Source: Sycon ciliatum
Taxonomy: Eukaryota; Porifera; Calcarea; Leucosolenida; Sycettidae
Reading direction: 5' to 3'
Length of the DNA: 64,000 nucleotides
Assembly: GCF_964019385.1 (NCBI RefSeq)
Contig: NC_088643.1
Coordinates: 44,571,214-44,635,213, forward strand
In this document: positions 20,287 through 57,216 of the stretch, piece by piece
Layout of the letters: each line of letters starts with the position of its first letter
How positions within the stretch are numbered: the first letter of the stretch is position 1
The notes under the pieces: model-generated
Databases searched by the model: none
Told to the model about the DNA's origin: nothing
Seen by the model: only the letters and a program-made list of their open reading frames with translations
Position numbers and translations under genes: made by a program

Positions 20287-22032
20287 CTGGCAGTGAATTC
20301 ATAACTTTTTCTGATGTTTTCTGTTTCCCCTGTAGATATCAAGATGAAGGAGCAGTCTGTAGAAAACCTGATAAGGTATGTCAAACAGTAAAATGGTGTA
20401 AGAATGGACTCGGATGGAGAGCCAAGGATATTAAAATTTATAATAAAGAAAAAGGACCAAGAAACTACAAGTTACGCTATAATGTCCACTAACACCACCA
20501 GTTACTAAACAATCAGCTCATGCGATAACATTGCACGACACTGACCGACGACCTGTTAGCCAGTTAGTTGTAGAACGTCAGTACCGTCGGTCAGTGTTGT
20601 GCAATGTTATCGCATGAGCTGATTGTTTAGTAACTGGTGGTGTGAGTGGACATTATTAGTGGACATTATAGCGCAACTTGTAGTTTCTTGGTCCTTTTTC
20701 TTAATTATACTTGAAGTAAGTAAAATGGTGTGTGAGCATTGCTGTCCAATTCTCCTGTGAAGCCTGCACGTCCGTGTGTATCTCGGCAGTGCATGAACCA
20801 GCGTGACTGCTAGCTGCTGGTATCAACATGATCTATGGCTATGCGTGCGTGTGTGTATGGGCGTGCATGGTGCAATGTGCAGAGGACGGCAAATCTTCGA
20901 ACCGCCTCGTTTCATGACCACGCAGCAAGCGGCCGAGCAACTTATTGCCATTTACAAGCGGCGCACGGCAAGCAGTGATGGCAAAGGCGACAGTTCGGAT
21001 GACGAAGCCGCCGCAGACCAGAATTTATTTACCGGTATGCGCTGCGAGCATGTGTTTGTTGGGCTTGCTGTAAACAAATGATGTTGAAAGTTATTAAGTT
21101 TGTATGTTTGAGTATTGGAGTATTGCTTCTCTAGACACATGTAGTGTTGGTGTTGACCGTAAGTACTACAGTAGCCAGTCAGCATGCATACACATCTTTA
21201 GCAGACTACAAGTACTACAGTAGCCAGTCAGCATGCATACACATCTTTAGCAGGCTACAAGTACTACAGTAGCCAGTCAGCATGCATACACACATCTTTA
21301 GCAGACTACAAGTACTACAGTAGCCAGTCAGCATGCATACACATCTTTAGCAGGCTACAAGTACTACAGTAGCCAGTCAGCATGCATACACATCTTTAGC
21401 AGACTACAAGTAGGGAGTGCTTGTAGGAAGAGTGTCTTCCTGTATCTTTAGCAGAACTAGAGCGAAATTGTGTCTCGAGCTGATTATATGTGGGGGATTG
21501 AACCTGTGGCATTCTGTGTGTATTTCTTTCATTTCTTTGGAGTAGGGTACTAGTACTAAAATATTACATTAGATAGGTTCCAGAGTACGATTTTTCGTGC
21601 CAAAATCCGTAGAGGCGCTACGGATTTTTCATACGTCGTTTTTGAGCAGTGAAATGTTCCGGAGTACGGAACTTCTGTGTTTGCCGTCATTGCCTAGGTT
21701 ACGATCCCAAACACGTCACATTCCCGCGCTATGCCTTTATGTTTTGAAAAATTGTACCGAAACCAAAACTTCCCGCGGAAAATCGATGTTTCTCGTACCA
21801 AATTTGTACGCGAAAAATCTTTCTGCACTCGATGACGCAAAATCTCCGTACGAAACATGGTTCGTATGAAAGCCAGTCCACACGGATTCTCCGTGCCGAA
21901 AAATCGTATGGAGCACGCCTCGAAAATATCCGTAGCGCCCATACGAATTTTGGCGCGGAAAATCGTACTCCGGAACCTCTCTATTGTGCTGTTGTGTTGT
22001 CCCTGCATTGTAAGTTGCTTGTGTTTGTTTCC

Positions 22033-23649: not shown

Positions 23650-26903
<3,254 letters not shown>

Positions 26904-27675
26904 AGTCGCTGCTTCGTTTGCAATGACACCATCCGCGGGCTACTGTTGCAACGCCTGAACGAGTGCGTTCAGCTGTGCACGATCACCATGCAGTTCGCCC
27001 ACTTGAAAATATGTTGCCCCTCAAAGGCTCCTACCAGTCTTCCCTTCCATTACATCCATCGACGGACGCAAAGTAATAATAAGGAATCCTTCCTATCCTT
27101 TCTTTTCTACGACTACGAGTACGAGTTCAGGAAACAAACAAGCAACCAGTTGGTCCGCGGGGCGCGGCGGACGCAGATTCACCGCTAGCGCGCCGGAACT
27201 TCGCGGTAGCGAGGCATTGTTTACATCAGGGAGTCGTAAAATACCTGGTATTTTACGACTCCCTGGTTTACATGATGCGGCCACATTCGTATCGCCGCGA
27301 CTATCGGTGCGCCGGGTTGGGTGCGCGCGCCGGCAGGATACGTGCGCACTTAGCTTTACTAGATCGAATGAGTACTCGTACGATCGTACAGATCTTCACA
27401 AAAAAGAACTGATTCTTTGCGTGTGACGGTGTGGTCACTCAGCTGGTTGGAACTTACTTACTTGGAAGCCCATCATGGCATTCATGCATATGCACGGCCA
27501 CATCCATGCACCGTGTAGATGTCTACGTGTAGTGCACCCGCGATTGGTCCAATGCGAAGAGAAAATTGTCATTCACATTTCACCAGGAAACTCAAGAAGT
27601 CAGGTCTTGTTCAGCCTTTTTTACTAGTTGCAGAGGCTTGGTGTGTTGTCTCAGTATCTACTTCGTTTGCTGAAA
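26904..27675. promoter_or_regulatory. Divergent promoter shared by PDCD6 and NAA15
   Basis: 772 bp separate the two opposite start codons. A CpG-rich stretch occupies about 27155-27340 and contains a 39-bp palindromic insertion. No TATA box is evident at a sensible position. The 5' ends of both transcripts must lie here. Confidence 0.7.
27227..27265. mobile_element. 39-bp hAT-like palindrome with 8-bp target duplications
   Basis: The arms CAGGGAGTCGTAAAATACC and its exact inverse are separated by a single T. The unit is flanked by identical GTTTACAT octamers (27219-27226 and 27266-27273). CAGGG ends plus 8-bp duplications are hAT hallmarks. It is effectively two terminal repeats with no interior, lying in the PDCD6/NAA15 promoter. 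Confidence 0.88.
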
Positions 27676-42940
<15,265 letters not shown>

Positions 42941-56214: not shown

Positions 56215-57216
56215 TCTTGTACACATTATTATCGATGAAATATATTATGTCATGTTCTTGTGGGCCATCGAAACTGGCCTTCTGTCTACTTTAATGCGCA
56301 TGCCTGCTGGAATCGTAACCAATGTGCATGTACAGTGCGTATCGGTTATAGCGTGGTCGTGTAAAAGAATATACTGCATACAAGAATGAACCCTCATGTT
56401 TTCATAATCATAACATGGATTTCAAGTGCACATTTATTCTTACAAGCAATTTTATCCCATAGTAGAATATATCGGTCCTAAGAATGGACTTTGTGTAGCG
56501 AAACATGCCAATTAGTACAAAGTGTATCGCCTGTAGTAATAACATCTGTCCAATTCCGTTCTGATGTGACTCTCGTTGCGTCGTAGTGCTGCAGATTCAA
56601 CTGTTGTGGCCATGTAACTCAATTTTTGCATAGCCACATGTAAGCTTATGGGACTATGACCAGCCACATGCACAGAAGTACTGTGTTGCATGTACGATGA
56701 TCTTCCTGCCCCTGCGGACATGCATATGATATGCCACACTTGATTTATCATGTGTAAGAAATATCGGAAATAAGAATAGAAAGTCGTTTTTCAAAAACCC
56801 ACGCTATAACCGATACCTACTGTACATGCTTTGAACATACTTATGACTGACTTCCTGTGCTGGAAGGCATGATTGTACATGTACAAGTACCCTGTGGAAT
56901 AAAGTATGCTTTATCTCTGCGTGTGGTGAAATAGTCAGCTGCTTCCTTCATGCCAGTACACTGTATTCTGATTTGATACATATAATGTACACAATGCTGT
57001 AGTACATGTACATGTACATGACTCTATAATTATGACTATTCGCATTGATACAATAGAGTGCACGATGTGCATGATACTCCATGTACATGTATGTTTTACT
57101 AATAGCAGTGCCAGTCGACACGAATACATACATAGTATGTACCCCTCAACAAATTTGGAGCTTCTGTGGAAGAAAATAACATGAAAAACACGCTGTTGCC
57201 ATACTGTTGCTATGCA

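Follow-up and report, generated by a model that had tools for sequence, protein, structure and literature searches.

A 39-bp perfect palindrome located between two divergent genes of the calcareous sponge Sycon ciliatum is a miniature element of the hAT type with nothing left but its ends, and is one of hundreds in the genome. We found it in a window of 64,000 nucleotides (C1:44571214-44635213 of the 538-Mb assembly), i.e., the whole stretch of DNA analyzed here. These palindromes are probably a non-autonomous hAT-type transposon that consists of its terminal inverted repeats, 19 bp each, with zero or one base between them, and that spreads as a unit. The surprise lies in the apparent spread of so small a unit (38-39 bp), not in the copy in the window itself.

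Direct reading of the locus at 27219-27273 gives GTTTACAT, CAGGGAGTCGTAAAATACC, a single T, GGTATTTTACGACTCCCTG, and again GTTTACAT. The palindrome is perfect (19+T+19) and has an exact octamer on each side (Table 1). As the sequence-only reading had placed it, it lies between the divergent start codons of a PDCD6-like gene (ATG at 26903, minus strand, 315 bp from the locus) and a NAA15-like gene (ATG at 27676, plus strand, 402 bp from the locus). The names PDCD6 and NAA15 are those of the sequence-only reading, and the Pfam matches in later exons agree with them. Among palindromes with a spacer of 0-1 bases, this one has the longest arm in the window (19 bases, the runner-up having 10), and 20 simulations of the window under a first-order Markov model each gave a longest arm of 7-10 bases. 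The probability of a 19-bp arm with such a spacer in 64 kb is around 5e-7, assuming equal base frequencies and leaving the duplication uncounted. Taken as a single strand, the palindrome forms one long hairpin with a folding energy of -19.2 kcal/mol (DNA parameters) and a z-score of -9.57.

Table 1. Coordinates of the palindrome, its flanking genes, and the host repeat of related copies (positions in the window, or locus identifiers).
Feature	Position	Strand	Basis and remarks
Left 8-bp target-site duplication GTTTACAT	27219..27226	.	sequence; fits nTnnnnAn (consensus of 35 perfect duplications)
Left terminal inverted repeat CAGGGAGTCGTAAAATACC	27227..27245	+	2,176 exact matches across the assembly
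Lone central base T, 39-bp class	27246..27246	.	49 T-centre places vs 620 spacerless (the commoner class, 38 bp)
Right terminal inverted repeat GGTATTTTACGACTCCCTG	27247..27265	-	exact reverse complement of the left arm
Right 8-bp target-site duplication GTTTACAT	27266..27273	.	sequence
PDCD6-like gene, first coding exon, 22 residues (context)	26838..26903	-	translation; EF-hand Pfam matches in a later exon
NAA15-like gene, first coding exon, 20 residues (context)	27676..27735	+	translation; NatA_aux_su Pfam matches in later exons
~690-bp host repeat bearing the 39-bp palindrome	L066-L067, L078-L080, L082, L085, L093-L095		inverted ends of ~43 bp

The window harbors other repeats. A second hAT-like element of 388 bp (29674-30061) has the ends TAGGGGTGAAA and TTTCACCCCTA and an exact 8-bp duplication, AATGTGGG (29666-30069). 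A 271-bp fold-back at 20439-20709 has arms that are 96-97% complementary, and an 8-bp duplication was not found at its ends; two 31-nt inverted repeats at 56326-56829 are 94% complementary and 442 nt apart, with no 8-bp duplication found. Finally, recurring near-identical reading frames indicate a tandem array with a period of ~278 bp at ~32191-33740.

Exact matches to the 19-bp arm number 1,091 on the forward and 1,085 on the reverse strand of the assembly, against none for the reversed-pattern control. A pattern for the tiny palindrome, made of the two inner 11-mers placed 0-12 bases apart with the outer 8 arm bases left free, was found at 738 places genome-wide (control 0). Among these, 620 are spacerless (the 38-bp class), 49 have a central T or A (the 39-bp class), and by subtraction 69 have other centres. 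Allowing six variable bases per arm in the spacerless pattern raised the count to 1,141 places (control 0). Some of these variants are symmetric and have exact duplications of their own: the arm AGTAGTACAATACC at four sites (CTGACAAG, CTGGAAAC, GTTCAAAC, and CTCGTAAC), the arm GTCGTCAAATACC with the duplication ATGCACGG, and the arm GTGGTAAAATACC with the duplication GTGAGCAC. Of the 20 variant-arm loci that we fetched, 10 show exact duplications, and 8 of the 20 are hitch-hikers within one larger repeat. There is also a second family, defined by the arm CAGGGAGTAGTACAATACC (456+545 matches genome-wide), with 220 palindromic places at spacers of 0-16 bases (control 1). Its centres are varied, with a spacer of 1-15 bases in 18 of the first 50 places listed, pointing to many separate origins of tiny forms. 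The palindromes have also been multiplied inside short tandem arrays, with periods of 57 bp (second family, C1:70398025-70398213) and 87 bp (L044).

If these palindromes were inserted, they should be flanked by duplications that differ from site to site. Grouped by the similarity of their 100-bp flanks, 73 distinct copies fell into 55 independent sites, and each site was represented in the scoring by its best member. Copies with more than two substitutions or with flanks shorter than 100 bp were left out; this is a non-random sample, as the loci were picked by exact arms, inner arms, or first listed places. At 35 of the 55 sites the two flanking octamers match perfectly, at 11 there is one mismatch between them, and at 9 there are two or more, while the control octamers just outside have at least three mismatches at 55/55 sites. 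The 35 perfect duplications represent 34 different sequences. Hence, the many copies with different 8-bp duplications that had been predicted from the window alone do exist. The two outcomes named beforehand as fatal to this idea, a palindrome unique to the window or copies lacking duplications, did not occur, given the 738 places and the 46/55 sites with at most one mismatch. The perfect duplications follow the consensus nTnnnnAn (T2 in 28/35, A7 in 27/35, both in 20/35), with which the window octamer agrees, and only 3/35 have the central TA of the Buster type. One 38-bp unit (L022:1493-1546) lies between inverted, not direct, octamers (GTTTGTAC and GTACAAAC) and is possibly a rearranged copy.

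Outer ends face each other 0-12 bases apart at 22 places, and the gap is exactly 8 bases at 18 of them, with 14 of these 18 octamers fitting nTnnnnAn. This excess has a p of around 5e-17 if the 13 spacings are equally likely and the places independent, a value that is too small since some places, such as C5:21196763 and C5:21198222 with their identical octamer, are apparently duplicates of a single event. The simplest reading is that a second element entered the duplication of the first one, both sharing one octamer.

One insertion could be compared with its empty sites. Among the 30 T-centred copies that were fetched, 10 share the duplication AGCAGGAT and sit in a repeated element of ~690 bp (insertion included). 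The shared duplication and common host indicate that these ten copies are one insertion multiplied with its host, and we rejected counting them as separate insertions. We then searched the genome with the flanks joined at a single octamer, a query of 188 bp, compared with the 235 expected of a filled site. The 40 matches scored, out of 217 candidates, were all full-length. They span 187-191 bp, with exactly 188 in 33 cases, and the three empty sites that we read have one AGCAGGAT each and no palindrome. Hence, for this AGCAGGAT insertion, filled and empty sites differ by exactly the 39-bp unit and one octamer; the evidence covers one insertion event in one host repeat.

The 8-bp duplications, the CAGGG ends, and the nTnnnnAn target together place these elements among the hATs. 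The terminal inverted repeats of hAT elements begin with CAGNG, and CAGGG ends are typical of the superfamily. The 19-bp arms starting with CAGGG fall within the 5-27 bp given for hAT terminal inverted repeats (PMC3517528, in excerpt), and nTnnnnAn is the target pattern of Hermes (PMC10368747, in excerpt). The sequence-only reading had described the locus as a transposed pair of hAT ends with essentially no interior, and the CAGGG ends, the target pattern, the hundreds of copies with their 8-bp duplications at most sampled sites, and the precise empty sites support this description. The palindromes also fit the description of MITEs: they are short, non-coding by their length, and have inverted ends, duplications, and 738 places (spacer 0-12). 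One difference concerns size. In the excerpts of PMC10368747, the ends of characterised active elements are long (~200 bp in Hermes, at least 200 in Ac, 200/150 bp in Tol2, and ~100 bp in Tag1), whereas the whole Sycon unit has 38-39 bp. These 100-200 bp are a functional need of Hermes, Tol2, Ac, and Tag1, not part of the definition of the superfamily.

Longer relatives with the same ends are present in the genome. A 29-base extended arm, CAGGGAGTCGTAAAATACCGGGAGGCGAC, has 91+86 matches genome-wide, and the first 100 of these listed form 36 facing pairs. The size of 32 of these pairs is 2,080-2,970 bp, and the remaining four have 3,608, 4,910, 6,926, and 8,737 bp. Three of the longer elements that we read have exact duplications of their own (GTGCTGAG, GTGTTCGC, and CTAATCCA), and the other two are 97-98% similar to the first. 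A fourth shows a repeat of 7 bp together with part of a second right end. Both ends of the longer elements carry CCGG (ATA-CCGG-GAGG and CCTC-CCGG-TAT) exactly at the junction of the tiny units, so that one deletion between the two CCGG motifs yields exactly the 38-bp form. Pairs were defined from neighbouring facing matches among the first 100 listed for each pattern (of 2,176, 1,001, and 177). In each of the two families, the adjacent exact-arm pairs in these first 100 matches measure either 38-53 bp or more than 2 kb, with none between, a gap that random interior deletions would not be expected to leave. Arm matches without a partner amounted to 50/100 and 58/100; in the loci read, this is mostly because the partner arm differs. 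In two long pairs of the second family (C1:24523547-24526641 and C1:38083006-38085925), a 38-bp palindrome lies ~975 bp from the right end, as judged by coordinates alone. The tiny unit seems to be nested in them and copied along with its long relative.

Do the tiny units move themselves? The T-centred class, to which the window copy belongs, bears on this point. Once copies with more than two substitutions or with flanks shorter than 100 bp are excluded, 23 of the sampled ones remain; they represent 17 independent sites, with 12 perfect duplications and 2 with one mismatch. Only 3 places in the whole genome show a T-centred arm that continues with CCTGG plus a non-T base, this pattern being blind to a next base T or a changed arm. 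The complementary case was examined in 121 loci: among the T-centred arms followed by T (31 on both strands), 31/31 run directly into the partner arm. We thus saw no longer T-centred source, either with the genome pattern for a next base other than T or in the 121 loci for a next base T. The 17 independent sites and the lack of a longer source in these searches indicate that the tiny unit itself most likely moved. The size gap among the listed pairs and the excess of tiny places (620) over long-end matches (177) also speak for mobility. Against it weigh the long ends needed by known hATs, the varied centres, the 9/55 sites with two or more octamer mismatches, and the lack of a recognised transposase in the long elements searched.

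The transposases of hAT elements excise their substrate with the formation of hairpins on the flanking DNA and then integrate it. In the reading that we favor, a hAT transposase encoded elsewhere would bind the ends in trans and excise the unit, which would then be joined to an 8-bp staggered cut whose repair would give the duplication. The tiny form would have arisen from a longer element that lost its interior between the CCGG motifs, giving the 38-bp unit, and the T-centred 39-bp class would then have spread as its own unit, the window copy being one of these. Extrusion of a cruciform could bring the two ends next to each other at its junction, which is a possible solution for the synapsis of ends 38 bp apart. 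A more ambitious proposal, that bare joined ends transpose without subterminal sequence, possibly via a cruciform, and so represent an unrecognised hAT mode, is speculative and in our view doubtful.

One might instead suppose that only elements of at least 2 kb transposed and that the tiny palindrome is the scar of in-place collapse after gap repair was interrupted at CCGG, never moving itself. Long same-ended elements with their own duplications do exist, and the 38-bp form is exactly what the CCGG at their two ends would lead one to expect. Such collapse would also suit the varied centres, i.e., the 18 of the first 50 listed in the second family and the 69/738 others in this one, as well as the long ends needed by all hAT elements characterised in the excerpts of PMC10368747. 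It accounts poorly for a T-centred class present at 17 independent sampled sites when no long T-centred source was seen, and for the absence of adjacent exact-arm pairs between 54 and ~2,000 bp among the matches listed. Moreover, the 620 tiny places outnumber the 177 long-end matches (a long element with both ends intact accounts for two of these), and the 39-mer inside the ~690-bp host was evidently tiny already when this host multiplied. We consider this explanation unlikely, if still worth weighing.

If the unit moves by its own ends, the mobilising transposase should be encoded elsewhere in the genome. The hAT dimerisation domain PF05699 has at least 150 matches in the genome (150 scored of 422 candidates), some of them in open frames of 660-695 codons present in several copies. 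Among these scored matches, none falls inside the 36 long pairs; the nearest approach noted is a listed hAT match ~2.7 kb beyond a long element on C4. Pfam gave no family above the cut-off for eight reading frames of the long copies L031 and L034, the sequence comparison of one reading frame with PDB gave no match, and in three intact hAT genes a stretch of 321 bp at the 3' end lacked the arm. The autonomous hAT element with the same 19-bp ends that had been anticipated was thus not found by the PF05699 genome search, in the Pfam analysis of reading frames, or at the three gene ends. The mobiliser is thus a putative hAT transposase. Since no transposase with the same ends was identified, one could argue that another superfamily producing 8-bp duplications moved the palindrome. 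This is very improbable: hAT transposase domains are abundant in this genome, and CAGGG ends are typical of hAT. Also, the 8-bp duplications with nTnnnnAn are as in Hermes (PMC10368747, in excerpt).

Larger repeats have copied some of the palindromes passively. This holds for the AGCAGGAT group in the ~690-bp element and for a GCATGAAT group with common flanks. It also led us to reject a candidate mobile subfamily defined by near-identical mismatched arms (L096-L101, L111, and L113), whose members share flanks and duplication and are hitch-hikers that count as one site. As a general account, in which the palindrome owes its copies to the larger repeats around it instead of its own ends, hitch-hiking is ruled out by the 55 independent sites among 73 copies with their different duplications, and we give it hardly any weight. 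Finally, the divergent promoter location and the strong fold might evoke a chance palindrome, or a regulatory one under selection, with accidental octamer repeats, but such an origin is practically inconceivable given the hundreds of copies, most of those sampled having their own duplications, and the precise empty sites. A later regulatory role at the PDCD6 and NAA15 promoters is possible, and the palindrome is a candidate for it.

Known elements provide partial parallels. Hermes is alike in its inverted ends (17 bp), 8-bp duplications, and nTnnnnAn targets, but it needs ~200 bp per end in cells and has subterminal repeats, for which the 38-39-bp units have no room (PMC10368747, in excerpt). 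Mar of Drosophila willistoni is, like the Sycon units, non-autonomous, with inverted ends, 8-bp duplications, and a longer same-ended relative; it has hundreds of bp and Buster-type nnnTAnnn targets, whereas the Sycon units have no interior and use nTnnnnAn (PMC3517528, in excerpt). Maize Ds elements share hAT ends, and their homology to Ac may be confined to these ends, as in Ds1 (~400 bp) and Ds-l4 (~1 kb, with little over 30 bp of Ac homology per end), but their interior has hundreds of bp, compared with 0-1 bp in the main Sycon classes (PMC3260210, in excerpt). We found no description of a bare-end hAT unit in titles and abstracts among the matches listed, a search whose scope left out most subscription literature, and the arm strings retrieved only work unrelated to transposons, by title and abstract. 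Bacterial REP palindromes are likewise tiny, occur in hundreds of copies, and are mobilised by an enzyme encoded elsewhere, which is in their case an unrelated HUH enzyme that leaves no 8-bp duplications. Scans run without a positive control gave no match to the exact arm or the degenerate 39-bp-class palindrome in viral contigs, nor to the degenerate 38-bp-class palindrome in bacterial and archaeal genomes. To our knowledge, a 38-39-bp unit, if mobile as bare ends, would be the smallest cut-and-paste unit.

Repeat annotation is generally expected to discard repeats as short as 38-39 bp, so that perfect palindromes scattered in hundreds of copies could escape notice. Should the tiny unit be mobile, the 100-200 bp per end seen in Hermes, Tol2, Ac, and Tag1 would not be a general lower size limit for hAT elements, and models built on long subterminal binding arrays would need to be revised.
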